This document shows positions 18,409 through 60,548 of a DNA stretch of 64,000 bases, one piece after another. Origin of the DNA: Zunongwangia pacifica (lineage in GTDB: Bacteria; Bacteroidota; Bacteroidia; Flavobacteriales; Flavobacteriaceae). The stretch covers positions 124,001 through 188,000 of the forward strand of contig NZ_JAKHSK010000005.1 in assembly GCF_023499215.1 (NCBI RefSeq), read 5' to 3'. Position numbers and translations under genes: made by a program. The notes beneath the pieces were generated by a model, which did no database searches, was not told the origin of the DNA, and saw nothing but the letters and a program-made list of their open reading frames with translations. Positions within the stretch are counted from its first letter, which is position 1, and the number at the start of each line of letters is the position of its first letter.

Positions 18409-18409
18409 A

Positions 18410-22388: not shown

Positions 22389-22406
22389 GTTAATTGATTA
22401 TGAATT

Positions 22407-36603: not shown

Positions 36604-36616
36604 GCAACAAAGTTTC
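36604..36616 (+). promoter_or_regulatory. Degenerate Zur-like box
   Basis: GCAACAAAGTTTC differs by one base from the box at 30135-30147. It lies 14 bp upstream of the ATG at 36631, with a half-site GTTGC at 36582-36586. The divergent phosphatase gene starts 231 bp away. Confidence 0.4.
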
Positions 36617-36630
36617 GTTATAATTTTACC

Positions 36631-36819: not shown

Positions 36820-36913
36820 TAGGTTCTAATCCCTATAATTTTTAATTGATGAGTAACGAAAATGCTTGTTGCTCAAATTCCCCAAAATTAATCTAATATT
36901 TTACCCAATCTAA

Positions 36914-38065
36914 ATGTCCCAAACAAAAACCAAAACTACCAAGCGTATTCATGCTATAGATGTTCTTCGCGGACTCGTAATTTTACTCATGCTTGTAGAT
37001 CATGTAAGAGAACGTTTTTTCTATCACCACCAGGTTACAGATCCCATGGATATTGATCATACCGATCCCACTCTTTTCTTTACCCGATTAAGTGCCCATT
37101 TTTGTGCGCCCGTGTTCGTGTTTTTAACCGGATTATCTGCATGGTTATATCAAAATCCCAATGGTAAACCTAAGCGCAATGTTAGCGAATATCTACTAAA
37201 AAGAGGTTTGTTTTTGATCCTTCTGGAAATAAGTCTTATTAATTTTTCCTGGTTTGGGAATTATCAAAATCTTTATTTACAAGTAATTTGGGCTATTGGA
37301 TTAAGCATGATTGCTTTGGCCCTCGCCGTAAAATTACCCCGAAAACTTATAGGCATACTGGGTATTCTTATCGTTTTTGGTCATAACCTTTTAACACCCC
37401 TGCAATTTTCGCCGGGCGAAACAGCTTATCCATTTTGGATAATTTTGCACGATCGGGGCTACCTTCTTCAGTCAGAAATTCTTAACATTAAAATATCTTA
37501 TCCGGTATTGCCATGGATAGGAGTGATCTTTCTGGGCTATTGCGCAGGCGTTCTCTATACCAGCGCCAGCCTTATAAAAATTCGCTATAAATGCCTGCTG
37601 ACTATAGGTTTTGGGGCGTTTACATTATTAGCTATTTTAAGAGGATTTAATATCTACGGAGAAACCATACCATGGGAAGGCTATAGCCCGAAAATCCAAA
37701 GCCTTATGTCTTTCCTTAACTTTACCAAATATCCACCTTCGCTAGATTTTCTGCTGTTAACGCTTGGCATGGGAGCTCTTTTTCTTTATTTATTTGAACG
37801 CTTTGAAAGTCCATGGATGAATTTTCTAAAAATCTTTGGTAGCGTTCCTATGTTTGTATATGTACTGCACCTGTATATTCTTCTTATCGCTTATCAACTT
37901 TTAAATATCATGTATGGATCAAATAAAGGCGATTACTTTGGTGTCGATCATATTGCTTATGTATGGGGAATTGCCATTTTTCTGGCACTTCTTCTATATT
38001 GGCCGGCTAAAAAGTTTGGTGCTTACAAGAAAAAATCGGGGCATGCTTTATTAAAATATTTCTAA
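36914..38065 (+). CDS. DUF1624 / heparan-alpha-glucosaminide N-acetyltransferase-like membrane protein
   Basis: 383 residues with about ten transmembrane helices. The N-terminus RIHAIDVLRGLVILLMLVDH carries the conserved Asp-Arg and the His that in HGSNAT-type enzymes takes part in acetyl transfer. FTRLSAHFCAPVFVFLTGLS and the final VYVLHLYILL helix also fit the family. Bacterial members may acylate envelope sugars from cytoplasmic acyl donors; the substrate is not known. Its 3' end meets the B12-controlled gene at a bidirectional hairpin. Confidence 0.85.
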   Translation: MSQTKTKTTKRIHAIDVLRGLVILLMLVDHVRERFFYHHQVTDPMDIDHTDPTLFFTRLSAHFCAPVFVFLTGLSAWLYQNPNGKPKRNVSEYLLKRGLFLILLEISLINFSWFGNYQNLYLQVIWAIGLSMIALALAVKLPRKLIGILGILIVFGHNLLTPLQFSPGETAYPFWIILHDRGYLLQSEILNIKISYPVLPWIGVIFLGYCAGVLYTSASLIKIRYKCLLTIGFGAFTLLAILRGFNIYGETIPWEGYSPKIQSLMSFLNFTKYPPSLDFLLLTLGMGALFLYLFERFESPWMNFLKIFGSVPMFVYVLHLYILLIAYQLLNIMYGSNKGDYFGVDHIAYVWGIAIFLALLLYWPAKKFGAYKKKSGHALLKYF

Positions 38066-39664: not shown

Positions 39665-40258
39665 ACGGCAATGTTAGTCTAAATATTAGAATAAAAGGCT
39701 ATAATGCCCCAAAAATTGAGCTTTTTAAAGTATTATTTTTATAGGATAGGGTTATTAAACCAACATAGAAAAACACTTTTACCACTTAGACGTATCCTGA
39801 AATGCAGGATCAAGTAATTTACTATTTAATGAAGAGCGATGTTAAAATATTCTATTTTTCAACCTAGAATGTAAGCATATCCTTAAACTTTATAAATTTT
39901 CACTACTATTTATAAAATTAAAAACTTTTATTACATTTATAGAAACTAAAAACTATAACGTTTTAGTTCGTATTGTCCGTCGATATTAATTTTTAATATT
40001 TTTAATTCAATCAGGTCATAAAATAGTCTTACAGATACTTCTTATGAGTCCGATTGAAGAAATAAATAATAATTAAGCATGCTAAGAATAAGCCAGATAC
40101 TACATGCAAAAACAAGGAATTTGAAAGATCTTAAAGATCATTATTTTTCTTTCAGCGCTACCCTACTCCGTAAGTATTTAGTGTCAACAAGACTTCAACT
40201 TAAGATAAATAACCACCGTAAATGCGGAGTATATCCCGATTGGTAAAACTTTATATCT
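39665..40258. other. Intergenic region between B12 riboswitch and GMC gene
   Basis: 594 bp of AT-rich sequence that should hold both divergent promoters. No TAnnTTTG element stood out. A 55-codon frame at 40079-40246 (starts MLRISQILHAKTRN, ends GVYPDW) precedes the GMC start by 12 bp; it has no recognisable domain and may be chance. Confidence 0.4.
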
Positions 40259-41983
40259 ATGTCATTTCAAATTAAAAAATCTGCCAAAACCTACGATGTA
40301 TGCATTGTTGGCTCTGGTGCTGGTGGAGGTATGGCCGCCAAAGTACTGGCCGATGCCGGTTTTAAAATTGCCATGCTCGAAGCCGGACCCGATTTTGATC
40401 CTAAAAATCCAGACCAGCGAACCCAGTTACGATGGCCCTGGGAATCGCCAAGAAGAGGCGCCTCGACCACCCGACCTTTTGGAGATTTCGATATGGCTTA
40501 TGGAGGTTGGGAACTTGATGGCGAACCCTACACCAAAGCGACTAATACCGAATTCGATTGGTTTCGTTCCCGAATGGTAGGTGGCAGGACCAATCACTGG
40601 GGAAGAATATCCCTGCGTTTTGGCCCTTTAGATTTTAAAAGAAAAGATTATGATGGTAAAGGTGATAACTGGCCGATTGGTTATCAGGATGTACAACCGT
40701 ATTATGATAAAGTAGATAAACTAATAGGTGTTTTTGGAACCAGGGAAAATATTCCTAATGAACCAGATGGCTATTTTCTTCCACCTCCAAAACCCCGATT
40801 GCACGAGCTTTATATTCAAAAAGGAGCGGCTAAAAGTGGTATCCCGATGATCCCTTCCCGACTTTCTATTCTTACACGAACGGTGAATAAGCAACGGGGA
40901 GCCTGCTTTTATTGCAGCCAATGTTCCAGATCCTGTACCGTTTACGGAGATTTTTCTTCCTCATCGGTACTCGTAAAACCCGCTTTAGAAACAGGAAACG
41001 TAGATCTGTATGTAAACGCGATGGTGAGAGAAGTAATTACCAATGGTGAAGGTGAAGTTCAGGGAGTATCGTATATAGACAAAGAAGACCTTAAAGACTA
41101 TACCATTAAAGCCCGGGTAGTGATCCTGGCCGCCAGTGCCTGTAGCTCGGCCAGAATTCTTTTAAATTCTAAGTCGGCCAATCATCCCGACGGACTTGCC
41201 AATTCCAGCGGCGTGGTGGGACACTATCTTCATGATTCTACGGGTTCTTCCAGAATGGGATTTTTGCCAGATTTGATGGATCGTAAACGGTACAACGAAG
41301 ATGGTGTTGGCGGAATGCACCTTTATACGCCCTGGTGGTTAAACGGGCAGATGAATTTAGGATTTACCCGTGGTTACCATATTGAATACTGGGGTGGTAT
41401 GGGAATGCCTTCTTATGGTTTTGGTTTTAATACAACAACACTACAAAACATCACCGGATCAACTAAAAATGCCTATGGCGTAGGATTAAAGAATGATGTA
41501 AAACGTTTTTACGGCGCTACATTTGGAATGGCTGGTCGTGGAGAAAGTATTCCGAGGAAAGAAAATTATTGTGAAATTGATCATCAGGTGGTTGATAAAT
41601 ATGGTATTCCTGTTTTAAAATTCAATTACTCATGGAGCGAAGAAGAGGTAAAACAGGCGGCTCACATGCAGGATACTTTTGAGGAGATCATTCATCAGAT
41701 GGGCGGTGTGCCACTAGGTAAAAAAGCTGGAAAGGATACCAGTTACGGACTTGAAAATCCGGGTCGTATTATCCATGAGGTGGGAACAACCCGAATGGGG
41801 AACGATCCAAAAACCTCGGTGGTTAATTCCTTTAATCAGGCGCATGATGCTCCCAATCTTTTTATTATGGATGGCGGCCCTTTTGTTTCTCAGGCAGATA
41901 AAAACCCTACCTGGACGATCCTTGCCCTGGCATGGCGCGCATCAGACTATTTAACTCAGGAATTAAAAAAAGGTAATATCTAA
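40259..41983 (+). CDS. GMC family FAD-dependent oxidoreductase (sugar dehydrogenase type)
   Basis: 574 residues. The FAD-binding Rossmann motif CIVGSGAGGGMAAKVL opens the protein, with a GGRTNHWGR segment near residue 110. The C-terminal GMC substrate half has the catalytic-region His in HEVGTTRMG and a final PTWTILALAWRASDYL. A cysteine cluster C216-x2-C219-x2-C222-x3-C226 (GACFYCSQCSRSC) suggests an iron-sulphur cluster for electron transfer. The next gene, 3 bp on, encodes the gluconate-2-dehydrogenase-subunit-3-like partner; such pairs oxidise sugars, including C3 of glucosides (LacA/LacC type), and pass electrons to a cytochrome. No cytochrome gene is adjacent. Confidence 0.87.
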   Translation: MSFQIKKSAKTYDVCIVGSGAGGGMAAKVLADAGFKIAMLEAGPDFDPKNPDQRTQLRWPWESPRRGASTTRPFGDFDMAYGGWELDGEPYTKATNTEFDWFRSRMVGGRTNHWGRISLRFGPLDFKRKDYDGKGDNWPIGYQDVQPYYDKVDKLIGVFGTRENIPNEPDGYFLPPPKPRLHELYIQKGAAKSGIPMIPSRLSILTRTVNKQRGACFYCSQCSRSCTVYGDFSSSSVLVKPALETGNVDLYVNAMVREVITNGEGEVQGVSYIDKEDLKDYTIKARVVILAASACSSARILLNSKSANHPDGLANSSGVVGHYLHDSTGSSRMGFLPDLMDRKRYNEDGVGGMHLYTPWWLNGQMNLGFTRGYHIEYWGGMGMPSYGFGFNTTTLQNITGSTKNAYGVGLKNDVKRFYGATFGMAGRGESIPRKENYCEIDHQVVDKYGIPVLKFNYSWSEEEVKQAAHMQDTFEEIIHQMGGVPLGKKAGKDTSYGLENPGRIIHEVGTTRMGNDPKTSVVNSFNQAHDAPNLFIMDGGPFVSQADKNPTWTILALAWRASDYLTQELKKGNI

Positions 41984-41986
41984 ATT

Positions 41987-42685
41987 ATGGATAGAAGAGA
42001 ATCGCTTAAAAAAATGTTTGTTGGCGGAGTGGCTTCCAGTGTGATGCTGAGTAGCTGTATCCAGGAAAAAGAAAGACCAATCGAAAAAGGAGATATCATC
42101 GAAGAAGCTCCGGGCTATGGCCGTACGCCAGATGAAGCTTCCAGAGATGAAGCATTAAGAAGTGAACAGTTTTTTACTGAAGAAGAACTAGCAATGATAA
42201 CAGTGCTTTCTGATATTATTATTCCTGAAGATGAAGATTCGGTAAGTGCATCGGCAACCGGTGTACCTGCATTTATTGAATTTATGGTTAAAGACATTCC
42301 TACATTACAACTGCCATTACGAGGTGGTTTAATGTGGCTGAACCGGGAAAGTCATAAAAGATTTGATAAAGGGTTTACCGCCATTTCCGAAGCGCAGCAA
42401 TTACAAATTATAGATACTATTGCTTATCCTGAAGAACACCTTAAAAATTCTCCCGGCCCCGTGTTTTTTGAAGCCATTAAAAAGTTGGTGATTACAGGAT
42501 TCTTTACCAGTAAAGAAGGGATCGCTTATCTGGACTACCAGGGAAACCGGCCAAATGTATGGGACGGTATCCCCGAAGAAGTGCTACAAAAACATGGAAT
42601 GCAATACGATGAAAAAATACTAAAAGTGGCTATGAATCCCGAAACCCGCCATGAGGTGATGAACTGGGATGACTATTCGCTATAA
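41987..42685 (+). CDS. Gluconate 2-dehydrogenase subunit 3-like protein
   Basis: 232 residues with MDRRESLKKMFVGGVASSVM, a mixture of twin-arginine-like start and lipobox (LSSC at about residue 24), so it is exported and possibly lipid-anchored. The body has LSDIIIPEDEDSVSASATGV and FIEFMVKD, typical of the subunit 3 family (LacC-like). This small subunit is thought to export and stabilise the GMC catalytic partner, which itself lacks a signal peptide; the pair could cross the membrane together by the Tat route. The gene lies 3 bp after the GMC gene and ends at a hairpin. Confidence 0.87.
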   Translation: MDRRESLKKMFVGGVASSVMLSSCIQEKERPIEKGDIIEEAPGYGRTPDEASRDEALRSEQFFTEEELAMITVLSDIIIPEDEDSVSASATGVPAFIEFMVKDIPTLQLPLRGGLMWLNRESHKRFDKGFTAISEAQQLQIIDTIAYPEEHLKNSPGPVFFEAIKKLVITGFFTSKEGIAYLDYQGNRPNVWDGIPEEVLQKHGMQYDEKILKVAMNPETRHEVMNWDDYSL

Positions 42686-42755
42686 GTTGTAGATACCAGG
42701 TTTTTAATGTAAGAAGACCAAAGAAAACTTATTATTTTCAATAGTCCTAAAAGAA

Positions 42756-42790
42756 AAGCCCCGTTATCATGACGATACGGGGCTTTTTAG
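42756..42790. terminator. Terminator, near-identical to the one beside tRNA-Ser
   Basis: AAAGCCCCGT (42756-42765) pairs with ACGGGCTTT (one C bulged), then TTTTTAG; A-rich on the other side, so it works both ways between convergent genes. The 35 bp match 54882-54917 except for one substitution and one missing G. Confidence 0.8.
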
Positions 42791-42815
42791 CTGAAAAGAA
42801 AGATTTCAGAATAGA

Positions 42816-43709
42816 TTAAGGATTAATAAATGATTGAAGCATTTCTCCTGTAATAACTGGATTAGCACCCTCTTGCCCGGCTACCAGCGCGCCCATTGCA
42901 CAAGCCTGATCAAGTGACTGTTGCGGCTCTTCTCCCTGCAACAGCTTAGCAATCAATGTGGCAAGAAATGAATCTCCTGCCCCAACGGTATCTTTTACCT
43001 TTATCTGGTAACCAGAATTATAATAGAGTTTTTTATCGTGTAGAAACACGGCTCCGTGTCTACCTTTAGTCACGCATATTGATGTTGCATTAGATTTTTC
43101 TGCTATAAAATGAAGATTTTGTTCCAGGGAATTATACTTAGAGCCTAGCAAAGCTGCAATTTCAAAAAGCTCATCATCATTGAACTTTATAAACTCTGCA
43201 TACCTTATCAATGACATCAATAATTCCTTTGAATAATGTGGAGGTCTCAGGTTAAAATCCAGCACACGAAAATGAGCTTTCTCTATAAGCTCGAACAAAG
43301 TATTTCTACTTATCTCATCCCGGCAAACTAAACTTCCAAATATAAAAACATCTGCATTTAAAACAGATTCCGACATGCCATCTTTAAGCTCGATCTTATC
43401 CCAAGCTGAAGGATATTCAATTTTATAAGTAGCAGATCCATTGGCAGAAAGGCTAACATTTACAATCCCGGTACTATGTTTCTCGTCTTTTAAAATATTC
43501 CCGGTTTCTATATATCTTGAGTTAAGATAACTGAGTAATTCATCTCCTTTTTCATCCACACCAACCTTACTAATCATCTCTGTCTCTATCCCCATACTGC
43601 TTAGTCTGCTTGCTACATTTAATGGTGCGCCACCTATTCTTTCTTTATTAGGAAAAACATCATAAAGGATTTCTCCAAAACACACTGCTTTTATTTTTTT
43701 TGTTATCAT
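42816..43709 (-). CDS. PfkB family sugar kinase, probable fructokinase
   Basis: 297 residues. ICFGEILYDVFPNKERIGGAP-like start (FGEILYDVFP, RIGGAPLNVASRL), a central substrate lid, and the ATP/catalytic signature VGAGDSFLATLI with the base Asp near residue 246. This is the ribokinase/fructokinase fold. In the fructan locus it would phosphorylate the fructose released by GH32 and imported by the MFS permease. It lies 184 bp after the SusD stop and behind a terminator, so it is either expressed by read-through or from its own promoter. The ATG at 43709 follows a hairpin-rich gap. Confidence 0.85.
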   Translation of the reverse strand: MITKKIKAVCFGEILYDVFPNKERIGGAPLNVASRLSSMGIETEMISKVGVDEKGDELLSYLNSRYIETGNILKDEKHSTGIVNVSLSANGSATYKIEYPSAWDKIELKDGMSESVLNADVFIFGSLVCRDEISRNTLFELIEKAHFRVLDFNLRPPHYSKELLMSLIRYAEFIKFNDDELFEIAALLGSKYNSLEQNLHFIAEKSNATSICVTKGRHGAVFLHDKKLYYNSGYQIKVKDTVGAGDSFLATLIAKLLQGEEPQQSLDQACAMGALVAGQEGANPVITGEMLQSFINP

Positions 43710-43756
43710 TTCTTAATTAAGAATTTAAAAAGGGAATACTATTTTCACGTAAATAC

Positions 43757-43777
43757 CTTCGGGGCAAGCCCCCGAAG
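43757..43777. repeat. Short GC hairpin upstream of the kinase gene
   Basis: CTTCGGGG (43757-43764) pairs with CCCCGAAG (43770-43777) around a 5-nt loop, in AT-rich surroundings. It has no T-run and precedes the kinase ATG by about 50 bp; a processing or regulatory hairpin is possible. Confidence 0.4.
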
Positions 43778-43815
43778 CATTTAATTTGAACATGATTTTT
43801 TTATTTCGAGGGAGC

Positions 43816-43830
43816 ATTTAATCTCGATTA
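43816..43830. repeat. Third copy of the ATTTAATCTCGATTA repeat
   Basis: Identical core to 2659-2673 and 2751-2765, again preceded by TATTTCGAG and followed by TCGA, between SusD and the kinase. Confidence 0.5.
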
Positions 43831-43833
43831 TCG

Positions 43834-43866
43834 AAAAAAAACACGAGGACAAACCCCGTGTTTTTT
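43834..43866 (-). terminator. Terminator of the fructan SusC/SusD operon
   Basis: Stem ACACGAGG (43841-43848) with CCCCGTGT (43854-43861), one mismatch, flanked by eight A and six T, so a strong T-run follows on the minus strand. It begins 28 bp after the SusD stop. Confidence 0.75.
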
Positions 43867-43893
43867 CGAGCAATACAAAACAATCATCAACAA

Positions 43894-45636
43894 TTAATAT
43901 CCAGCGTTCTGAACGTAAAGTCCGCCTGTAAAATCAATTTCCCGTTGCGGGATTGGATAATATTCATCTCTCCCTGCTGTAAATACTGCATTGGCTAAAA
44001 AGTCTCTTTTAGTCTTTTCTTCATCCAGGTAAGCATTCAGCGTTTCTTCAGCTTCGCCCCATCTAACCAGATCAAAAAATCGTGGCCCTTCCATTCCAAA
44101 TTCAAGTCTTCTCTCAAATTTTAATGCTTTCCAGGCAAATTCTTTATTCGGGAAAGAGGTATATAATCCTACGTTGTAGATATCTGAAGCTCCGGCAGCA
44201 ATCGGTTTTTGTGTACTCGCAGCAGCTCGTTCTCTAACTTCATTTATCAAAGGTAATGCTTCTGTATATCGATCTAACTGAATAAGGGCTTCCGCTTTAA
44301 ATAAAAGTACATCTGCATATCTAATAAATATTACATTTCTTGAAGTTCCAACAAAAGGCCCCTCTTTTATATAGCAAGAACAGTCTGGAGCCTGCTGTTC
44401 CTTCATATTTCCAAAGAAACCATACACTCCCGGATCTCTGGCCCAGCTGAATTTATAAATCATATCGCCCTGTTCATTTACCGTATTTCGGTATTTAAAA
44501 GGCCGTCCTGGTATTCCTACCGTATGATCTAACCTAGGATCTACGGTTAAGCCTGAAGATACGGCTACAGTCCCGTCTGCCTGCACATTGTTTAGTATAT
44601 CTGATTGATTGAATGAATCTAATAAAGGCAGACCATTTGCATCTGTTCTAAATGAATTTACCATATTCTGACTGGCTAGATGGAAGCCGCAACATCCGTA
44701 AAGTCCGGTACCATGAGGAGAATTTAAACCTGTAACGAAGCTTACCCTTCCAACTCTGGTACCATCATTAATAGAGAATTGTGCTGCCCATATAGATTCT
44801 GGGCCATTTTCATAATCCATAAGAAAATTATTCGCGTAATCGGGCTCAAGACTACCAATAACCTCATCTGTATAGCTTATAACTTCCTGAAGCAAAGAAC
44901 TATTTATGCTAACTACCTGATTGTTTTCGTCTTGCTCATAGGCCTGGTATAACTTAGTTTTAGCCAGATAGGCAGCAGCGGCACTCCTGTCTGCGCGCCC
45001 AACTTCATCCTGTTCCTCAGGCAAATTATTATAGGCAAAAAGAAAATCGTCAGCGATCATATTCCATAATTCCTGATTTGGTAGATCATTTCCGGTATCG
45101 GCGATTTCCTCCTTGGTAAGATCTTCAGTGATATAAGGAATCTTTTTGAATATTCTTTTCAGCATAAAATGGCAATGAGCACGCAAAAACCTCAACTCTC
45201 CCTGCCGGGTCGTTTTTACATCATACCCGGCTTCAGGAATATCATTTATTACGCTTAACGCAAAATTTATTCTGGAGATCGCTTTATAATAATTGGTCCA
45301 TGTTCTTGGTGCCATTAATTCTCCCTGATCTGGAACTGTTAGATAATATTGTTCATATCTATCAACCTCGGCAACATCACTTCGGCCACCTCCACCTTTA
45401 TAGGAATCATCAGAGCGAACGCTCCCGTACACCCACATGTGGGTTAAAGGACCTATCATATCATCATTGGCAATTCCTGCGTAAGCAGCAATCACAAGAG
45501 ATTCGGCATTTTCGGCTGTTGCTACATTTTCGTTGGAAAGCACTCCTTCTGGTTCATATTCTAAAAAATCTTCTGAGCAGGATATTAAAAAACTGGAAAG
45601 CAACAATCCTGTTATGATATATTTTATATTTTTCAT
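43894..45636 (-). CDS. SusD/RagB family lipoprotein of the fructan locus
   Basis: Start set at 45636 (MKNIKYIITGLLLSSFLISC), three codons inside the longest frame, for a standard lipoprotein signal. The 580-residue body has LRFLRAHCHFMLKRIFKKIP, FIRYADVLLFKAEALIQLDR and the C-terminal YYPIPQREIDFTGG, all SusD hallmarks. It would bind fructan chains at the cell surface and close the lid on the SusC partner 12 bp upstream (counting to the SusC stop). The substrate is inferred from the adjacent GH32 enzyme. Confidence 0.92.
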   Translation of the reverse strand: MKNIKYIITGLLLSSFLISCSEDFLEYEPEGVLSNENVATAENAESLVIAAYAGIANDDMIGPLTHMWVYGSVRSDDSYKGGGGRSDVAEVDRYEQYYLTVPDQGELMAPRTWTNYYKAISRINFALSVINDIPEAGYDVKTTRQGELRFLRAHCHFMLKRIFKKIPYITEDLTKEEIADTGNDLPNQELWNMIADDFLFAYNNLPEEQDEVGRADRSAAAAYLAKTKLYQAYEQDENNQVVSINSSLLQEVISYTDEVIGSLEPDYANNFLMDYENGPESIWAAQFSINDGTRVGRVSFVTGLNSPHGTGLYGCCGFHLASQNMVNSFRTDANGLPLLDSFNQSDILNNVQADGTVAVSSGLTVDPRLDHTVGIPGRPFKYRNTVNEQGDMIYKFSWARDPGVYGFFGNMKEQQAPDCSCYIKEGPFVGTSRNVIFIRYADVLLFKAEALIQLDRYTEALPLINEVRERAAASTQKPIAAGASDIYNVGLYTSFPNKEFAWKALKFERRLEFGMEGPRFFDLVRWGEAEETLNAYLDEEKTKRDFLANAVFTAGRDEYYPIPQREIDFTGGLYVQNAGY

Positions 45637-45648
45637 GATTATCATTTT

Positions 45649-48600
45649 TTAAAAATTCATGTTTAGACCAACAGAAAATACCGTTGGTACTGGGATTCTA
45701 TTCACATCAGTTCTTTCAGGATCGGAACCTATATAACCATTTGGTGTAAACCATAACAAGTTCTCTCCCTGAAGATAGATCCTAAAGCTCTCTAAAACAC
45801 CAATTTTTTCAATTAGAGTGTCAGAAAGGGAATATCCCAGCTGCGCATTTCTAATCTTGAAATATGAATTGTTACGGAACAAATAATCTGAAGTTCTTAA
45901 ATCATTAAAGGCAAGCGATAAAGATGGAATATCGGTATTGGTATTATTTGGCGTCCATGCGTTAAGTACACCCATTCCGGCATTTTCCCTACCCTGAACA
46001 AAATTGTTCCAGGATATGTAAGGGTCTTGACCAATTCTTCCGGTCACTCCAGATCCAAATACCGAGAAATCCCAGTTCTTATAACCAAGATTTATTCTTA
46101 TACCATATTCCAAATCTGGTAAGGTTGTTCCTATAAAATCACGGTCATCTGTATCTATAACATTATCTCCATTAAGGTCTTTAAATTTGATACCTCCCGG
46201 GCGAGCCCCCACTTGTTCTGGCGAGCTATCTATATCTTCCTGACTTTGGAAGAGACCATCAGATTTATAGCCAAATATCGAAAATTGAGAATGTCCCAAT
46301 ATTGAATTTTGTGCCGTTCCCGGGAATCCTGCCCGTACTTCTTCTGGCAGAAAAGTGATCTCGTCCCTAAAAGAAGAGAAATTAGTTGAAACTGAAAAAG
46401 TAAGTTCATTTTCGAAGGTAGTACTATACGCAAGGGCAAACTCCCATCCCCTGGTTTTGGTTGTTGCACCGTTTAAAACCCGTTGCTGACCTTCCCCAAG
46501 TACTGAGGGAATCGGTGGCGTGGTTAAAATATCTACCGTTTCCCTGGTAAAATAGTCAAAAGAACCACTTAATTTATTATCAAAAAGTCCAAAGTCTACC
46601 CCAAAGTTCCACTCTTTGGTCGTTTCCCATTTAAGATTTGGATTCTCTGCCTGAACAGAAACAAAACCAGAGGGTAAATTTCCTGTATTATTACCATTAA
46701 TATCATAAGCAGTACCTATATTATAGTATTGTTCGAAGAAACCACTGGCATATTGCGAAAGTGTTGAGCCATATCTTGCTTCGTATAGTCCGAATCTGGC
46801 AAGATCGCCAATAGACTGATTCCCCACTTCTCCATAACCTGCTCTTAATTTTAGATTGGTAAGCGTCTCTATTTCATTCAAAAAATCTTCATTACTTATC
46901 CTCCAACCTGCTGTTACGGCAGGAAATACTCCATATCGATTATTCTTTCCGAACCTGGAAGAACCATCTCTACGTACCGTGACAGAAGCCAAATATTTAT
47001 TACTAAAAGAATAATTTATTTTACCGAACTGAGAAAATAATCGGTTACCAGAAGAGTTTCCGTTAGCAGTTCTTGCGCCTGTCCCGGCATCCAATACAAA
47101 ATAAGATTCTTCTTCTACCGCAAAACCTTCAGATCTTGCAAGAACACGGTCAAAATCATTTTTAACGGACTCTACTCCCAGAAGTACCCCAAAGTTATGA
47201 TCTCCTAGTTCCAGTTTATAGTTTAGTGTATTTGTAAAAACAACACTGGTGTATTTATTAGTATCAAAAGTTAGGCTGTTATTAGTTCTGGTAATAAAGC
47301 CGTTATTTACTCGTGGCTCTATATCTTTTCTTTTAAAATCATTAAAGTCTACACCCAAACTAGATCTAAAACTTAGATTTTCTAAAAGATCAGCTTCTAC
47401 ATAAATGTTTCCAAAGAAATTATTTTTCTCCGTATTATCCCACCTGTTCAAATATTGTATTAATACGGGGTTGTTTCTATCTGAATATCCTGCTCCAATA
47501 GGCCCTGCAAAATCACCATTAATATCATATACGGGTATTGTTGGAGCAAGAGATACCGCTAACCCGGGAGTAGGCGCACTTCCCACATCTGGAGATGCCA
47601 GTGTTTCATCTGAAGTTGAGAATTGTGTATTTACTCCAAAACGTACCTTATCATCAAAAAGATTTGCACTTGCATTGATCCTGGCCGTTAAACGGTCGTA
47701 ATTAGTATATTTAAGAATCCCAGTATTTTTAAGGTGCCCAAGATTTACCAGAAATGACGATTTTTCGGAGCTAGCAGAAACAGTTAGCTCATTATTATAA
47801 ACATATCCTGTTTCGTACGTTGCTTCCTGCCAGTCTGTATCTCCTGCCGGAACTGTTTCATCTCCACCAACAAAAGGTCTTACGGTAACACTATTTAGTA
47901 CAGGATTTTGGAAATCATTATTCCAGTCGAAATTATAGATCTCACCATAGCCTGATGCAGGATCGGCGCCATCATTTACAGAAGCCCTCCATAGAACTTC
48001 CCCTCGTTGAACTGAGTTAAGCATATCGTAACGCTGTTGTTTTTCAGATTGTACAGAAAAATTTGAATTGAAGCTTACACTTACTCTTTCTGCGCGCCCG
48101 GCACTATTCTTGGTGGTCACCACAATTACACCATTCCCGGCCCTTGCTCCGTAAAGGGAAGAGGCAGAAGCATCCTTAAGTACCTGGATAGATTCTATAG
48201 CATCTGGATTTATGGAAGAAAAAATTTCCTGCCGCTGTGTAGGGACTCCATCTATTACATAAAGCGGATCATTGTTCCCTAAAGTGGTTATACCTCTAAT
48301 AAGCACCCTGCTACTTGCTCCCGTAGGATCTCCAGATTTTTCCACAAAAAGGCCAGGAACCCTTCCCTGCAGCGCCTGCATAGTATTTCCTGAACTTCTA
48401 CTTTGTCCTTCTATAGGACCTGTTTGAACAACCGTTATAGCACCGGTTACATCTACCTTTCTTTCCCTGGAGTATCCTGTTAATACAACTTCATCCAGTA
48501 AGGCAGAATCTGCCTTTAAGGCTACATCTATTTTTGTATTACCATTTACGGGTATTTCAGTTTCTCTGTATCCAACAAATGTGAAGACCAAAATACCGTC

Positions 48601-48801
48601 TTTAGGAACATTTTTTAAAATGTAATTCCCATCAAAATCGGTAGATGTTCCATTACTTGTTCCTTTTACAAATACTGATGCTCCGGGAAGAAGCATTCCT
48701 TCCTCTGCCGTGGTTACCGTTCCTGATACTTCGATCTCCTGTGCCGAAAGAAAATTCAGCGAGAGCAGGAACATAAAAAATAAAATCGAATTTAATTTCA
48801 T
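45649..48801 (-). CDS. SusC/RagA TonB-dependent receptor of the fructan locus
   Basis: Start taken at 48801 (MKLNSILFFMFLLSLNFLSA), three codons inside the longest frame starting at 48810. A carboxypeptidase-like domain (VSGTVTTAEEGMLLPGASVF), a TonB-box-like region (LDEVVLTGYSRERKVDVTGA), a plug (QVLKDASASSLYGARAGNG) and a beta-barrel follow; there is no STN domain. It should import fructo-oligosaccharides into the periplasm. The start lies 10 bp after the GH32 stop, so GH32, SusC and SusD form one transcript. Confidence 0.93.
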   Translation of the reverse strand: MKLNSILFFMFLLSLNFLSAQEIEVSGTVTTAEEGMLLPGASVFVKGTSNGTSTDFDGNYILKNVPKDGILVFTFVGYRETEIPVNGNTKIDVALKADSALLDEVVLTGYSRERKVDVTGAITVVQTGPIEGQSRSSGNTMQALQGRVPGLFVEKSGDPTGASSRVLIRGITTLGNNDPLYVIDGVPTQRQEIFSSINPDAIESIQVLKDASASSLYGARAGNGVIVVTTKNSAGRAERVSVSFNSNFSVQSEKQQRYDMLNSVQRGEVLWRASVNDGADPASGYGEIYNFDWNNDFQNPVLNSVTVRPFVGGDETVPAGDTDWQEATYETGYVYNNELTVSASSEKSSFLVNLGHLKNTGILKYTNYDRLTARINASANLFDDKVRFGVNTQFSTSDETLASPDVGSAPTPGLAVSLAPTIPVYDINGDFAGPIGAGYSDRNNPVLIQYLNRWDNTEKNNFFGNIYVEADLLENLSFRSSLGVDFNDFKRKDIEPRVNNGFITRTNNSLTFDTNKYTSVVFTNTLNYKLELGDHNFGVLLGVESVKNDFDRVLARSEGFAVEEESYFVLDAGTGARTANGNSSGNRLFSQFGKINYSFSNKYLASVTVRRDGSSRFGKNNRYGVFPAVTAGWRISNEDFLNEIETLTNLKLRAGYGEVGNQSIGDLARFGLYEARYGSTLSQYASGFFEQYYNIGTAYDINGNNTGNLPSGFVSVQAENPNLKWETTKEWNFGVDFGLFDNKLSGSFDYFTRETVDILTTPPIPSVLGEGQQRVLNGATTKTRGWEFALAYSTTFENELTFSVSTNFSSFRDEITFLPEEVRAGFPGTAQNSILGHSQFSIFGYKSDGLFQSQEDIDSSPEQVGARPGGIKFKDLNGDNVIDTDDRDFIGTTLPDLEYGIRINLGYKNWDFSVFGSGVTGRIGQDPYISWNNFVQGRENAGMGVLNAWTPNNTNTDIPSLSLAFNDLRTSDYLFRNNSYFKIRNAQLGYSLSDTLIEKIGVLESFRIYLQGENLLWFTPNGYIGSDPERTDVNRIPVPTVFSVGLNMNF

Positions 48802-48811
48802 AATGTTCATT

Positions 48812-50425
48812 TTAGTTAAATGTTAGTTGGTAGGCTTCTATTTCATTTAGGGTAAACGGGACATCCATTGATTGTACTGAAAGCGTTTCCCAGGGACGAT
48901 TTGGGAAGAAAATTTCTGTCATCACTGTTTTTCCTTCATCAAAGAATAATTCAATAGAAGTTCTATCAATTATGATCGTTCCATCAAGGTTATTAGCCGT
49001 TGAAATTCGTGGTGCTGTTGATATTTCTGAAGCGAATTCTTTAGAGAAATCTGTCTGACCTACTTTAGATCTATTGATAAAAAACTCGTTGTTGGAGTGA
49101 TCATATCCAAAAAGAAGCTCATCTCCTACTAAATTTGAAAGTTTGAATTGGTATGTCGTTTTCTGTAAATCAGAAATTTCAAATCTTATTTCTGCACTGC
49201 TAAGCGCAATTTTTTCAGCATCAATGATCTTGGTTAATCCATCGATCTGAACATTTTGATCTTTATATTTTTTACTACGATAGCTTTGCAACTCTTTTAC
49301 CGGCACTGAGCTAATAAGGTATTTACCATCCATTTTTTCAAGTTTTAGCTCTCTAGCAACAGTCATGGCACTACGCCAGGTTTCTGTAGGTACTTTTTGC
49401 GCATATTCCCAGTTGGACATCCATCCCAAAAACAACGTCCTTCCGTTTTCCTCAGGAATATTAGCCCAGGTGACACCCGCATAATTATCTTTTCCGAAAT
49501 CTATCCAGTACGGGTGATTCGAGTCCAGATTACTCATTTGTTCGACCGGAGTAAATTTTTTCCCGTCAAAATCACCAATAAAATATTGCGTTCCAGATCC
49601 TCCATTATATCCGCCGGGATTAAGACTTTGAATTAGTACCCACTTTACCTCATCGGTACCTTCTACATACATTGGGAAGAAATCTGGGCATTCCCAAACT
49701 CCGCCATGTGCCCCAATACCTTCTCCAAATTCAGATTGACGAGTCCAGTTTTTAAGGTCTTTAGAAGTATAGAATAGTGTTTTGTCTTGCGCAGCCAAAA
49801 CCATAATCCACTGTTGGTGAATGCCATCCCAGGTCACTTTTGGATCCCTAAAATCTTTGATCCCAGGATTTTCAATTACCGGATTCGCCTCATATTTAGT
49901 CCAGGTTTGACCTTCATCCAGACTGTATGCAATGGCCTGGGACTGGTAATCTATAGCTCCTTTTTCTTCTCCTTTTGGATCATGGTAAGTAAACATGGCC
50001 ACAATTGGGGTTTTACCATCTTTACCAAAACCCGACGTATTGTTTTTATCTACTACGGCACTACCAGAGAAAATATATCCTTTCTCATCTGGGTAGATCG
50101 CGATAGGCTGTTCTTTCCAAGAAATCATATCGCTGCTAATGGCATGGCCCCAATGCATAGGTCCCCAAACATTATCATCTGGATAATATTGAAAAAACAA
50201 GTGAAAATACCCGTTAAAGTAAAACATACCGTTAGGGTCGTTCATCCAGTTATTTTTGGGGGTAAAGTGAAAATTAGGCCTGAAATCCTCATCTTTCTGA
50301 ATCTCGACAGTAGTTATTTTTGTTTGATCTTTTATAGGTGCTGCATGCTCTTTGGTTTCTTTACATGACGTAAAAAAACTAACAGGAATGACCATATAGA
50401 CTAGTAAGTAGACTATTTTTTTCAT
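48812..50425 (-). CDS. GH32 fructan hydrolase (levanase/inulinase/fructosidase type) lipoprotein
   Basis: 537 residues. Lipoprotein signal (VSFFTSC, Cys about residue 21). The five-bladed propeller carries the GH32 triad: nucleophile D63 in WMNDPNG, transition-state D194 in DFRDPK and acid/base E245 in WECPDF. A C-terminal beta-sandwich ends with IELFFDEGKTVMTEIFFPNR. GH32 enzymes remove fructose from levan, inulin or sucrose. The lipid anchor suggests it faces the periplasm or cell surface. Sequence alone does not separate endo from exo action or beta-2,6 from beta-2,1 preference. Confidence 0.93.
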   Translation of the reverse strand: MKKIVYLLVYMVIPVSFFTSCKETKEHAAPIKDQTKITTVEIQKDEDFRPNFHFTPKNNWMNDPNGMFYFNGYFHLFFQYYPDDNVWGPMHWGHAISSDMISWKEQPIAIYPDEKGYIFSGSAVVDKNNTSGFGKDGKTPIVAMFTYHDPKGEEKGAIDYQSQAIAYSLDEGQTWTKYEANPVIENPGIKDFRDPKVTWDGIHQQWIMVLAAQDKTLFYTSKDLKNWTRQSEFGEGIGAHGGVWECPDFFPMYVEGTDEVKWVLIQSLNPGGYNGGSGTQYFIGDFDGKKFTPVEQMSNLDSNHPYWIDFGKDNYAGVTWANIPEENGRTLFLGWMSNWEYAQKVPTETWRSAMTVARELKLEKMDGKYLISSVPVKELQSYRSKKYKDQNVQIDGLTKIIDAEKIALSSAEIRFEISDLQKTTYQFKLSNLVGDELLFGYDHSNNEFFINRSKVGQTDFSKEFASEISTAPRISTANNLDGTIIIDRTSIELFFDEGKTVMTEIFFPNRPWETLSVQSMDVPFTLNEIEAYQLTFN

Positions 50426-50451
50426 ATTTGATTCGTTGTTAATTGGTTTAT

Positions 50452-51771
50452 TTATTTGTTTATAGAAAGTTGTTCACTTAGCTCTTCCAGAGATTTCCCT
50501 TTGGTTTCTGGCATCATAAAAATCACAAAGACCAATTGCAGTACCATCATAAAAGCGAAGAAGGCAAATACATATCCAGCACCTATAGTGCTGAAAAGAA
50601 ATGGAATACTTGATGGAATAATTGCTGCGAGTACCCAATGCGTTGAAGAACCAAATGCCTGGCCTGATGCGCGTAAACGGTTTGGAAATATTTCAGAAAT
50701 AAACACCCATATTACCGCTCCCTGACCTATGGCGTGGGATGCTATAAAAAGGAATAGGAAAACCGGAACCCACATTCCTCCCCAATTCAGGAAAAAAGCG
50801 GCAGCTACAAGAGAAAGTGAGATTATATAACCAATAGAGCCATACAGTAAAAGTTGTTTTCTGCCAAGTCGATCTATTAAAAAAACTCCCAGAAGCGTAA
50901 ACAGCAGATTCACCACTCCAATTCCTATACTACTTAATAGTGCCGTGCTTTCCCCTAAACCGGCAGATTCAAATATTCTTGGAGCATAATATAAAAAGGC
51001 ATTTATCCCCGACAGCTGATTAAAAAAAGCGATCAAAAATGCAAGAATCAAAGGAAAACGATACTTTTTCAGAAAGATATTTTCTCCCGTTTTTTCTTTG
51101 GCATCTAACTCCTGTATCTCACGCAACTCCTTTCGAGAATCAAGATGCGGGTTGATCGTTGATAGCACTTTTTCTGCTTCCTCAATTCTTCCTTTGGAAA
51201 TTAGCCACCTTGGGCTTCTAGGAATAAATAGGACAAATAGAATATATAAGAGTGCGGGCAATGCTTCTATACCTATCATCCACCGCCAGGGTTGTGCTCC
51301 GGTATTGCGTAATAAATAGTTGGATAAGAATGCTATCAAAATCCCCAAAACAATATTGAACTGATAAAGAGACACCAGCTTTCCCCTTTTATGGGCTGGT
51401 GAAATCTCAGATACATAAGCAGGCGCAGCAATGGTTGAAGCTCCTACGCCAAGGCCTCCCAGAAAACGAAAAACTGCAAAAGAAATAGGATCATTAACAA
51501 GGCCTGATCCCAAAGCAGATACAAAATATAGTATTCCTATTATGAAAAGAGTATTCTTTCTTCCCCATTTATTGGTAGGAATACCACCAAAGATAGCACC
51601 TACTACAGTCCCCCATAAGGCCATTGCCATCACCACCGATCCATGAAAAGCATCTGAAGTATTCCATAATGCCTGAAGCTGCTTATCGGCTCCTGAAATG
51701 ACTACCGTATCAAAACCAAATAAAAAACCAGCAAGTGCAGCACTTATTGACCAGGTTAGAATTTTATTCAT
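50452..51771 (-). CDS. Sugar:proton symporter, MFS SP family
   Basis: 439 residues, twelve hydrophobic helices. Family signatures are clear: FLFGFDTVVISGAD, RFLGGLGVGASTIAAPAYVSEISPA (here split at GGLGVGAS), PRSPRWLISKGR in the central loop, DRLGRK and the end PETKGKSLEEL. The length and QLSGINAFLYYAPR segment match hexose symporters. As first gene of the minus-strand run MFS-GH32-SusC-SusD it should bring fructose into the cytoplasm for the PfkB kinase. GH32 starts 26 bp later. An inverted repeat at 51940-51980 lies upstream. Confidence 0.92.
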   Translation of the reverse strand: MNKILTWSISAALAGFLFGFDTVVISGADKQLQALWNTSDAFHGSVVMAMALWGTVVGAIFGGIPTNKWGRKNTLFIIGILYFVSALGSGLVNDPISFAVFRFLGGLGVGASTIAAPAYVSEISPAHKRGKLVSLYQFNIVLGILIAFLSNYLLRNTGAQPWRWMIGIEALPALLYILFVLFIPRSPRWLISKGRIEEAEKVLSTINPHLDSRKELREIQELDAKEKTGENIFLKKYRFPLILAFLIAFFNQLSGINAFLYYAPRIFESAGLGESTALLSSIGIGVVNLLFTLLGVFLIDRLGRKQLLLYGSIGYIISLSLVAAAFFLNWGGMWVPVFLFLFIASHAIGQGAVIWVFISEIFPNRLRASGQAFGSSTHWVLAAIIPSSIPFLFSTIGAGYVFAFFAFMMVLQLVFVIFMMPETKGKSLEELSEQLSINK

Positions 51772-51939
51772 AACTTAATTTTTATGTCTAAAAACTAAAG
51801 TATGCTTAAAACCCACCCTTATATTTTAATAATTTCGCAAATGATTTTAATAATGTTAAGGATAAGTAAAATTTAATATAAAAAACTAACAATCAGATAT
51901 TTAAACTGCTTTTAAAAATAAACCGAAAACGATATAGTT

Positions 51940-51980
51940 TTAATTATGATACATAAATTCCAATAATGTATCATAATTAA
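51940..51980. promoter_or_regulatory. Perfect 15-bp inverted repeat upstream of the fructan operon
   Basis: TTAATTATGATACAT (51940-51954) is mirrored by ATGTATCATAATTAA (51966-51980) with an 11-bp spacer. There is no T-run in either direction. It lies 31 bp past the hybrid sensor stop and about 170 bp before the MFS start: a candidate operator for that sensor's AraC domain, or an mRNA 3' hairpin. Confidence 0.5.
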
Positions 51981-52011
51981 AAAACCAACTACAAGGTTTG
52001 AGATTTCATGA

Positions 52012-54738
52012 TTAAGAGGTTTTTAACTCTTTAGGAGAAATACCATATTCCTTCTTAAAAGATGTTGAAAAATATCCCGGGGAGGAATAGCCAACTTCAT
52101 AAGCAATCTCAGAAATATTTAGTTTTGAATTCTGGAGTAAATTTTTTGCTTTTTTAAGGCGTAGCGAATTAATGTACTCATTAACACTCACACCTAACAG
52201 GGCTTTTACTTTTCTATACAATTGCACTCGGGAGATCTCTAAACTACATGCAAGATCTTCTACAGTAAAGCCTGAATTCTTAAGGTTAGCATCAATGAGG
52301 GCATTAAGCTCTTTAAGAAAAAATTGCTCGGCACCGGCAAAGTTCTCGCCATTCACTTTATCTATACGGTTGGTATAATAATATCGCAGTTTTTCCCGAT
52401 TAAATAATGCCGATTTAATGGACTCCATTAAGATCTGATTATTGAAAGGCTTAGTAATATAAGTATCTGCCCCTGCTTTTAAGGCTTTAAGCCTCGATTC
52501 CTTATCACTTAAAGCAGTTAAAATTATAGTAGGAATATGGGAAGTTCGCAGATCGTTCTTTAACTCCCGGCATATCTGAAATCCATCTTTATCTGGCAGG
52601 TTAATATCACATATCATCACATCTGGAATAACTTCAAGGGCTTTTTCAACACCATCCACGCCGTCAGAAACATAAACCTTATATTCTGAGCTTAATTTTT
52701 TCTGAAGCAAAAAGGAGAGTTCAAGATTGTCTTCAATGATCAATACCGATTCCGCATTTTCCCTTAAGTTTTTATTACCATCTATCTCTTCAGGAACTAG
52801 ATTCTCCACCCGGTTCCTCTCATAAGAGGTATCCATTCCCTTTTGAACTTCAGAAATAACATACTCTTTTAAATGAACATTACCTTTTAATAGCGAAATT
52901 TTAAATTCGGCTCCCTGGTTGGAAGAAACACTAATATTCCCTTTATGCAATTCCACAAACTGGCGTGTAATATAAAGCCCAATACCAGAACTGGGCCTGG
53001 TATTGTTACTAGCCTGCATGTACGGATCGAAAATACTTTGAAATTCTTCTTTCGGAATCCCTATACCGGAGTCTTTAAACAAAATTTCAATTTTTTCTTC
53101 TTTCTCTTCTATTGTAATATGAACTTTTCCATTTTTAGGAGTAAACTTAAAGGCATTAGAAAGGATATTAAAAAAGACTTTATCCATCATTTCCCTATCT
53201 AGATAAAGCTCAAGATTTTCGCTTTTATAGGAAAATTTAAGCTCAATAGATTTTTTAAGCGCTTCACTTTTGAAATTATCAACTATATTTTTAAGAAAAG
53301 GAACAATTTTGGTTTTTGTAACCCTTAAATCGAAACTGCCATTTTCGATTTTCCTGAAATCCAACAGCTCGTTAATAAGACGTAGCAATCTTTTGGAATT
53401 ATTTATGATAAGATTGGTCTCATAAGAGATTTCCTGAGATTCTTTTGAAGGACGTTCGGCTATTGAATCAATTGAACTGGTAATAAGCGTTAATGGTGTT
53501 TTGAATTCATGCGACAAGGCTGTGAAAAAATTGATCTTACTTTCATTAGAAAGCTTCAATTTTTCTGCGAACTCCTCAATTTTATTTCGCTGCGCTCGTA
53601 TCTCTGTATTACTCGATTCCAGATTTCTTTTATGCTTCCTAAGCTTAACAACCAGATAAATACTCCATACACTTAGTATTAAAAGCAGGACTAATAAAAA
53701 TATCATTAACTGGATAAGCTTTGATTGCGAATTGTAGGTATTAATTTGTTTATCGATTACTTCCTGTTGGTGCTCAATATCATTCTGCTGTTGGTTCATT
53801 TTATCGAACTGGTTCTTCATGATCCCAACATTTACAGAATCTATAATAACCGTCTTCAGTATATTATTCTTTTCAATACTTTCATGGCTCATCAACTCTT
53901 CAGCTAATTTTATAGCTTCCATACCGCCGGTAGGATAAAGGACTGTGGCCGATAGAATACGATCTTTCACTAACTGAATTCCTCCATTAGGGCCAAAAAG
54001 TCCGTCTACTCCAATAATATGGATATCATCTTCCAGAGATTTCTCTTTTACCACCTCCCAGGCTCCCAGGGCCATTCGGTCATTATGTGCAAAAATGTAC
54101 TTTGGGATTTCGGTGGAATCTAAAAGCTTTGATAATTCCTCTTTTATGGAAGCTTTTTCCCAATCGCCTTTAATGATATGAGATATGGTTAAATTAGGAA
54201 TCTGATTTATCGCCTTTCTAAAGCCTTCACTTCTTTCATGGGCAGGCGAAGATCCTTCCTGACCGGTAATTTCTATGATTTCAGCGGGTTCACCTGAATG
54301 GGAAATGATATATTTTGCGGCATTGCGTCCCACTTCTACATTATTTGCACCAATATAAGCTGTAAAATTGCTCCCATCTATTTTTCTATCGATAACAATA
54401 GTTGGGATGCCTGCATCCATCGCCTTTTCTATAACAGTAGTAATGGGATTAGACTGGATAGGAGACACAATAAGCACATCTACATCGTCTTTAATAAATC
54501 CTTCTATCTGCTTAACCTGTTGGGCAACACTGTTTTCAGCATCCTTAATTTCAAGAACAATTTCTGGGTGAAGCGAAGCTTCCAGTTGCATGGATTTATT
54601 CATCTCACGGCGCCAATTGTCTGTTGTCATCGCTTGCGAAAAACCAATTCTATAGTTCTCCTCACTATGTTGTTGATTGCACGAAAGGAATAAGAGGAAA
54701 AAAATGGTAAGAAAAAAAAACTTAATTAAAGGCTTCAT
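52012..54738 (-). CDS. Hybrid two-component system with LacI-type periplasmic sugar-binding sensor
   Basis: 908 residues, all parts in one chain: lipobox-like signal (FLLFLSCNQQ), periplasmic-binding domain of the ribose/LacI type (about 30-315; IGFSQAMTTDNWRREM, VIDRKIDGSNFTAYIGANN), a transmembrane helix near 345, HisKA with His about residue 410 (FFTALSHEFKTPLTLI), HATPase, receiver with D about 711 (MICDINLPDKDG), and an AraC helix-turn-helix (LNISEIAYEVGYSSPGYFS). This matches the fructose-sensing regulator BT1754 of the Bacteroides levan locus in architecture. It probably activates the fructan operon on binding fructose. Confidence 0.92.
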   Translation of the reverse strand: MKPLIKFFFLTIFFLLFLSCNQQHSEENYRIGFSQAMTTDNWRREMNKSMQLEASLHPEIVLEIKDAENSVAQQVKQIEGFIKDDVDVLIVSPIQSNPITTVIEKAMDAGIPTIVIDRKIDGSNFTAYIGANNVEVGRNAAKYIISHSGEPAEIIEITGQEGSSPAHERSEGFRKAINQIPNLTISHIIKGDWEKASIKEELSKLLDSTEIPKYIFAHNDRMALGAWEVVKEKSLEDDIHIIGVDGLFGPNGGIQLVKDRILSATVLYPTGGMEAIKLAEELMSHESIEKNNILKTVIIDSVNVGIMKNQFDKMNQQQNDIEHQQEVIDKQINTYNSQSKLIQLMIFLLVLLLILSVWSIYLVVKLRKHKRNLESSNTEIRAQRNKIEEFAEKLKLSNESKINFFTALSHEFKTPLTLITSSIDSIAERPSKESQEISYETNLIINNSKRLLRLINELLDFRKIENGSFDLRVTKTKIVPFLKNIVDNFKSEALKKSIELKFSYKSENLELYLDREMMDKVFFNILSNAFKFTPKNGKVHITIEEKEEKIEILFKDSGIGIPKEEFQSIFDPYMQASNNTRPSSGIGLYITRQFVELHKGNISVSSNQGAEFKISLLKGNVHLKEYVISEVQKGMDTSYERNRVENLVPEEIDGNKNLRENAESVLIIEDNLELSFLLQKKLSSEYKVYVSDGVDGVEKALEVIPDVMICDINLPDKDGFQICRELKNDLRTSHIPTIILTALSDKESRLKALKAGADTYITKPFNNQILMESIKSALFNREKLRYYYTNRIDKVNGENFAGAEQFFLKELNALIDANLKNSGFTVEDLACSLEISRVQLYRKVKALLGVSVNEYINSLRLKKAKNLLQNSKLNISEIAYEVGYSSPGYFSTSFKKEYGISPKELKTS

Positions 54739-54881
54739 TGATTAGTAGTTAACAAGCTTCTAAAATAAAATTTAAAAATTGTTTAACAACAAAAAGCACT
54801 GTCTAATTGATTTCTCTATAAATTAATCACAATTTTTGCTTAAACACAACTTGTAGGATTGATCATTGTTAACAAAAAAAC

Positions 54882-54917
54882 AAAGCCCCGTTATCATTAC
54901 GATACGGGGCTTTTTAG
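54882..54917. terminator. Terminator of tRNA-Ser, near-identical to 42756-42790
   Basis: AAAGCCCCGT pairs with ACGGGGCTTT, with T-runs on both sides (minus strand GTTTTTTTG). It directly follows the tRNA 3' end on the minus strand. It matches the hairpin at 42756-42790 except for one substitution and one extra G. Confidence 0.85.
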
Positions 54918-55002
54918 CGGAGAAAGAGGGATTCGAACCCCCGGAGGTGTGACCCTCAACGGTTTTCAAGACCGCCGCATTCGACCACTCTGCCATTTCT
55001 CC
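54918..55002 (-). tRNA. tRNA-Ser (anticodon TGA)
   Basis: On the minus strand: acceptor GGAGAAA with TTTCTCC and discriminator G, D-arm GGCAGAGTGGTCGAATGCGG (20 nt), anticodon stem-loop CGGTCTTGAAAACCG with TGA at 34-36, a class II variable arm (TTGAGGGTCACACCTCC) and T-arm GGGGGTTCGAATCCCTC. 85 nt; CCA is not encoded. Confidence 0.95.
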
Positions 55003-57390: not shown

Positions 57391-57448
57391 GAGATTTCTC
57401 CATTACGCTACGCTTCACCTGCCTGCCGGCTGGCAGGGTCGAAATGAC
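57391..57448 (-). repeat. Dispersed intergenic repeat, inverted partner of 60490-60548
   Basis: Its reverse complement starts GTCATTTCGACCCTGCC and ends AATGGAGAAATCTC. It matches 60490-60548 at roughly nine in ten positions, in opposite orientation. It contains a CCTGCCTGCCGGCTGGCAGG palindrome. Confidence 0.8.
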
Positions 57449-60242: not shown

Positions 60243-60371
60243 AAACTCAATTTTAGTCAACCTGTTCCGATAGCTATCGGAATTGTTTCAGGTTCTCCTA
60301 ACGATTTTTAAATCAATAAGATGAGATTCTGAAACAAGTTCAGAATGACGTTTTGGGATATTTTTAGACAG
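60239..60371. repeat. MITE-like dispersed repeat, copy 2
   Basis: Matches 34581-34735 along most of its length, including CCGATAGCTATCGG (60267-60280) and the end TTTTAGACAG (60362-60371). It lacks the 20-bp palindromic insert, and its left end has kept only CTAAAA, which overlaps the upstream stop codon. Confidence 0.7.
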
Positions 60372-60489: not shown

Positions 60490-60548
60490 GTCATTTCGAC
60501 CCTGCCTCGCCGGCAGGCAGATGGAGCGTAGCGGAATGGAGAAATCTC
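60490..60548 (+). repeat. Dispersed intergenic repeat, inverted partner of 57391-57448
   Basis: Starts GTCATTTCGACCCTGCCTCG and ends GAGAAATCTC; opposite orientation to 57391-57448. A 75-codon frame running through it (60429-60656) is repeat-derived, not a gene. Confidence 0.8.

Follow-up and report, generated by a model that had tools for sequence, protein, structure and literature searches.

A fructan locus between two near-identical hairpins beside tRNA-Ser in Zunongwangia pacifica: probable cargo of a tRNA island that has lost its integrase

A 64,000 nucleotide stretch of the Zunongwangia pacifica genome (contig NZ_JAKHSK010000005.1, positions 124,001 to 188,000 of the forward strand), referred to here as the window, carries six genes, all on the minus strand at 42816-54738, which together form a predicted fructan polysaccharide utilization locus: the susC/susD pair, the GH32 enzyme and the regulator that characterize such loci are all recognized by Pfam. 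An initial annotation, made from the letters alone, had noticed that these genes are enclosed by two near-identical hairpins, of which the right one touches the 3' end of tRNA-Ser, and had offered either acquisition of the whole locus as a cassette or reuse of a favoured terminator as the explanation. The enclosure and the contact both hold, since the six genes lie between the two copies and the right hairpin ends at 54916, immediately before the tRNA at 54917-55002. The locus is probably the cargo of an island inserted at the 3' end of tRNA-Ser(UGA), the integrase of which has since been lost. The features are listed below; dS is the synonymous divergence of each fructan gene from its orthologue in a second genome of the genus, G004, and arm sites are the short repeats at which an integrase would bind.

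40259-42685, plus strand: GMC oxidoreductase and gluconate 2-dehydrogenase subunit 3 genes (Pfam), left flank of the block
42755-42789, no strand assigned: left hairpin copy, a probable bidirectional terminator between convergent genes (the GMC pair and fructokinase), read here as a possible displaced tRNA-Ser terminator
42790-42806, minus strand: stretch resembling the 3' end of tRNA-Ser, beside the left hairpin; proposed displaced and decayed tRNA fragment
42816-43709, minus strand: fructokinase, PfkB family (PF00294), dS 0.18
43894-45645, minus strand: SusD-like protein (PF07980, PF14322), dS 0.19
45649-48810, minus strand: SusC-like TonB-dependent transporter (PF07715, PF00593, PF13715), dS 0.18
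48812-50425, minus strand: GH32 hydrolase of the fructanase/levanase type (PF00251, PF08244), dS 0.13
50452-51771, minus strand: sugar porter of the MFS (PF00083), dS 0.25
52012-54738, minus strand: hybrid two-component regulator with a periplasmic sugar-binding domain (PF13407, HisKA, HATPase_c, Response_reg, HTH_18), dS 0.16
54867-54873, minus strand: GTTAACA, proposed remnant of a first arm site (GTTGACA), 43 nt from the tRNA 3' end
54882-54916, no strand assigned: right hairpin copy, probable tRNA-Ser terminator and proposed proximal attachment end
54917-55002, minus strand: tRNA-Ser (anticodon TGA), an integration hotspot with a right flank conserved in six of six genomes of the genus

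The repeat unit is 35 nt long, AAAGCCCCGTTATCAT[G/T]ACGATACGGGGCTTTTTA, and a single substitution separates the two copies, which lie in direct orientation with their starts 12127 nt apart. The initial annotation had the pair, its orientation and the substitution right; its coordinates were off by about one base, and both copies are 35 nt long. An extended repeat of 49 nt is identical at 44 positions between left and right copies, and the left hairpin region matches its copy in G004 at 48 of 49 nt. None of 100 shuffles of the window contained a match to the repeat at up to 3 mismatches. On either strand both hairpins are predicted to fold stably (-18.7 to -21.3 kcal/mol, z -4.7 to -6.8) with a one-nt bulge, and it is perhaps because of this bulge that neither was among the 12 sites found in a simple terminator scan, in which 14.7 were expected. 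As the right hairpin abuts the 3' end of tRNA-Ser it is probably the terminator of that gene, and both hairpins probably act today as ordinary terminators.

The good folds on either strand, and positions at which terminators are expected, would suit the idea that the hairpins are alike simply because a favoured terminator sequence is common in this genome. The counts argue strongly the other way. At up to 3 mismatches in an ungapped search there are only two copies in the whole genome (5.1 Mb), and one copy in the other genomes of the genus (six genus genomes, the copy being in G004), while 298 further genomes sampled from the family have none; this search misses any copy that carries an extra base, as does the similar G044 hairpin described below. 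The looser pattern AAGCCCCG...CGGGGCTT has just one further occurrence in the genome, where the loop is different. When exact stems and a free loop were required, viral contigs gave no match and a named genome collection, which may omit the window's own genome and its near relatives, gave two, in a Saprospiraceae metagenome-assembled genome and in Hahella. Reuse of a favoured terminator is accordingly judged extremely unlikely, and the finding that the initial annotation had named as damaging to acquisition, the same hairpin after many unrelated operons, was not made.

The divergence of the locus from G004 sets it apart from its surroundings. There were 101 reciprocal orthologue pairs, of which 8 lie in window 40000-54900; 79 of the 93 others, all flanking orthologues of at least 150 aa and >60% identity, were kept as a background, with a median dS of 0.77, a 5-95% range of 0.49-1.30 and a lowest value of 0.27 (0.269 among all 93 pairs when unfiltered). 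All six fructan genes, at 0.13-0.25, are under the background minimum. A likelihood change-point on mismatches places the left edge of the low-divergence region at 42720, just outside the left hairpin, with 2-unit support of 42699-42753 when a longer stretch is analysed and 42687-42766 when a shorter one is; forcing the break to the first base of the hairpin, 42755, costs 2.2 or 1.4 units. From the low dS and the left change-point it follows that the fructan block has a separate lateral history in which the GMC genes did not take part, and that its left edge falls within tens of bases of the left hairpin.

This bears directly on the notion of a single metabolic cassette in which the fructan genes travelled with the left hairpin and the GMC genes. 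The two sets of genes are colinear in both genomes that carry them, but the change-point divides them, and the dS of the GMC oxidoreductase (0.79) and of gluconate 2-dehydrogenase subunit 3 (0.52) falls in the background range, against 0.13-0.25 for the fructan genes; a single cassette is thus very unlikely. A foreign composition of the locus, for which the initial annotation had proposed a comparison of codon use, was ruled out by ordinary GC and codon use, as would be expected for a transfer between close relatives. Among 199 genomes of the family the best-scoring DNA match to the fructan genes outside the genus was 70% identical over ~2.5 kb, with shorter pieces at 74%, so no donor is named.

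Comparison within the genus shows that the DNA beside tRNA-Ser is variable on one side only. The genes to the right of the tRNA are conserved in all six genomes. To the left, the DNA of G001, G002, G003 and G005 is unrelated to the window, a different hairpin or terminator (read by eye) abuts the tRNA, and the single left-flank gene tested is far away or on another contig. The fructan locus, as judged by its transporter, is present in two of the six genomes, the other four having 69-70% identical homologues elsewhere; the gluconate 2-dehydrogenase subunit 3 gene is likewise found in two of six. G004 alone shares the GMC genes, the left hairpin and the fructan locus, as one colinear block corresponding to window 40061-54808. 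Since G004 has the left hairpin only and a gap of ~24 kb to the tRNA, the hairpin pair is not needed to define the block. An empty site, for which the initial annotation had suggested a search, was not found among the six genomes, the four without the block having a rearranged left side with unrelated DNA and another terminator. Acquisition as a block therefore stands as regards a separate lateral history with a left edge at the hairpin, and draws nothing from an empty site or from composition.

A number of other differences were seen in these comparisons, in which the whole-stretch alignment with G004 shows matches of at least 400 nt only. About 14 kb of the window (8481-22396) is without a match in G004, which has ~3.3 kb in its place, and just before this gap, at window 7160-7211, G004 has ~9.5 kb extra. 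The part of the regulator gene that encodes the signal peptide (window 54655-54738) diverges from G004 far more than the remaining gene. Synteny stops near 36.4 kb in G005 and near 38.0 kb in G001 (window 36441-38037); together with the distance of the left-flank gene from tRNA-Ser, this indicates that the tRNA is joined to different parts of the chromosome in two lineages.

The flanks of tRNA-Ser(UGA) were surveyed across the family at 111 places in 104 of 120 genomes; 90 were read (30 + 60 loci), 89 being used for hairpin comparison and 88 (at least 150 nt) for counts of GTTGACA. In three other genera (G044, G095 and G078) a similar hairpin abuts the tRNA, with local scores of 22, 20 and 16 respectively against a best of 12 from 1900 shuffled flanks; the window's right hairpin is one base shorter than that of G044, and its far side resembles the G044 flank at a fraction of 0.024. 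Irrespective of the hairpin sequence, GTTGACA begins exactly 44 nt from the tRNA end (+44) in 8 of the 88 flanks, and in 6 of these 8 a second copy stands at +56, the spacing always being 12 nt; two or more copies were present in 1 of 1440 background windows. From their place and spacing these repeats are putative integrase arm sites. One flank from another genus, L209, has GTTAACA at +44 and GTTGACT at +56.

Longer reads at 8 of these hotspot loci found an integrase at 3, which is no unbiased rate because the loci had been picked for their hairpin or GTTGACA. The three, in G103, G074 and G108 (three other genera), are full elements with the same order: tRNA, hairpin, GTTGACA pair, cargo, tyrosine recombinase, GTTGACA pair or triple, displaced tRNA 3' fragment, hairpin. 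Their recombinases are 415, 419 or 424 aa long with a mutual identity of 40-63%, that of G108 having Phage_integrase and SAM-like domains and an arm-binding domain just under the cut-off. The displaced fragments lie ~20.5 kb (G103), 23.8 kb (G074) and 14 kb (G108) from the tRNA, and each has a stable hairpin after it (-15.6, -19 and -22 kcal/mol; z -5.4, -5.6 and -3.7), which resembles the proximal hairpin in G103 and differs from it in G108 and at the first fragment of G074. A second fragment in G074 is 82% identical over 74 nt to the tRNA end, the hairpin and the start of the GTTGACA region. tRNA-Ser(UGA) is a real integration point in the Flavobacteriaceae, as the initial annotation had supposed of tRNA-Ser. 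We make no claim that the element family with this layout of hairpin and GTTGACA is undescribed.

Features that could be traces of such an element occur at both ends of the fructan block. At the right end GTTAACA may be what is left of the first arm site: a match of this type has a background of 0.00066 per position and a chance of ~0.002 of falling within one base of +44. At the left end the stretch after the hairpin, GCTGAAAAGAAAGATT, aligns to the tRNA 3' end, GCGGAGAAAGAGGGATT, over 17 nt with one gap, and the G004 copy matches slightly better. Among 4262 sites that follow TTTTTA on both strands of 946 kb, the window and G004 stretches rank at the top after tRNA-Ser itself (the two top scores being 9 and 8, the next 7), and shuffles that kept composition plus the first one or two bases reached such values in fractions of 0.0035/0.0062 (window) and 0.0021/0.0042 (G004). 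These figures are suggestive, not proof, of a tRNA fragment.

At one end, such elements carry in a tRNA 3' end together with a terminator hairpin and arm sites; the host's tRNA 3' fragment and terminator are displaced to the opposite end. Applied to the window, the right hairpin and the single arm-site remnant would mark the tRNA-proximal end, and the left hairpin with its adjoining tRNA-like stretch would be the displaced end; both hairpins would be copies of the tRNA terminator, left as worn end-marks by a mobile element. In the proposed order of events an element carrying the fructan genes integrated at tRNA-Ser(UGA), the block was exchanged between species after they had split, and the integrase end was lost; in G004 either genes were inserted later between the tRNA and the block or the right end was deleted. 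Site-specific integration, followed by loss of the integrase module, may thus have put the block where it is.

Several observations weigh against this explanation. No integrase is recognized by Pfam among the six genes, in agreement with the initial annotation, which had none in view. In 208 kb of the window's own contig the sole relative of the three element integrases is ~161 kb away, and in the six genomes of the genus there is no close copy, only distant tyrosine-recombinase matches (best-scoring 28% identical) which are present in all six, 13 of them in the window's genome. The three flanks with hairpins most like the window's are also without an integrase over the 36-60 kb that were read. 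At the right end the second arm site (+56) is missing, and over all 26 positions scanned a one-mismatch GTTAACA has a chance of ~0.02, so that only its place makes it rarer. At the left end there is neither a distal GTTGACA pair nor an integrase, and fructokinase ends ~10 nt from the proposed fragment, which is short and degenerate and the letters of which in G004 form an inverted repeat, GCTGAAA...TTTCAGC, an alternative reading. The far-side sequences of the two hairpins are no more alike than random segments of the window (fractions 0.21 and 0.20), and as the two hairpins of intact elements can differ, near-identity here calls for a donor whose terminator was the same, or for gene conversion at a later time. 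In G004 the right hairpin is not present and ~24 kb of other genes separate the fructan locus from tRNA-Ser. Finally, identity to G004 drops at the right end not at the hairpin but at 54654 (54645-54662), inside the signal-peptide region of the regulator; beyond this ~150 bp are still homologous but 24% different, and homology stops at 54808.

This last observation suits a serious rival, in which homologous recombination between species recently replaced a fructan locus that both lineages already had; the second hairpin would be older or independent, and no integrase would have been involved. A sharp break followed by homologous but divergent sequence, homology with G004 that spans the GMC genes in one colinear run (40061-54808) and the missing integrase would all agree with it. 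Left unexplained are the two near-identical and rare hairpins at the edges and GTTAACA near the expected distance, and a resident locus sits poorly with its presence, by transporter, in two genomes out of six while the other four have only 69-70% homologues elsewhere. Homologous replacement is on this balance rather unlikely, while insertion at the tRNA followed by loss of the integrase remains the favoured explanation; as the integrase is missing, the locus is filed as like a tRNA island and not as a full member of the class. More speculatively, and with much more doubt than belief, the tRNA-Ser(UGA) elements of the Flavobacteriaceae might use the tRNA terminator as a component of their attachment end: a hairpin would flank the crossover, arm sites would lie at the fixed distances +44 and +56, and every insertion would supply the tRNA with a terminator anew. 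In that case the fructan block would be their carbohydrate cargo, perhaps still movable in trans by an integrase of this family, and defence and sugar genes would share one delivery route.

Two further repeats were noticed in the window. One of 72 nt, 93% identical between 34611-34682 and 60266-60337, is followed by a shared CAGGTTCAGAATGACGTT-like stretch; 208 kb of the same genome contains four copies, on one strand, and the stretches read from the five other genomes of the genus contain none. The other is an inverted repeat of 40 nt, 93% complementary, at 57391-57430 and 60509-60548, ~3 kb apart.

Fructan loci of the Bacteroidota combine a SusC/SusD pair, a GH32 enzyme, a fructokinase, a sugar porter and a hybrid two-component regulator with a periplasmic sugar-binding domain. 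Against these the gene content described here is ordinary, and it is the place and edges of the locus that are of interest: a whole sugar-utilization locus has passed from species to species within a marine genus, and one of its edges can be placed to a few tens of bases. Defence islands also occur at tRNA genes. The tRNA-Ser of G004 fits that pattern, with Gabija gajA beside it, then a partial gajB and a transposase-like gene which we take to be IS110-like (all within L024 15091-19484), whereas in the window no genes of this sort lie between the fructan locus and tRNA-Ser.

The islands of G103, G074 and G108 have in common with the fructan locus the tRNA and the side of it that is occupied, the abutting hairpin, a proposed GTTGACA-type site near the fixed distance (here the variant GTTAACA) and a proposed far-end fragment with a hairpin. 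They differ in having a tyrosine recombinase and far-end GTTGACA repeats, and their cargo includes type I restriction-like genes (a reading of the sequence only), whereas in the window the cargo is fructan genes and the integrase end is missing. With the islands catalogued by Islander (PMC4383910), the locus shares a tRNA at one end and a putative fragment of its 3' end, in the same orientation, at the other, with 12 kb between. That paper describes some tRNA fragments in which a short deletion lies 3 bp upstream of the discriminator base, and in our own alignment the proposed fragment has a one-base gap at about that place. Unlike those islands, the locus has no integrase, its fragment is weak and its terminator hairpin is duplicated too; having no integrase gene, it would fail the catalogue filter. 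The layout shared at tRNA-Ser(UGA) by several genera could help to find integrase-less relic islands of the kind that integrase-requiring finders discard.

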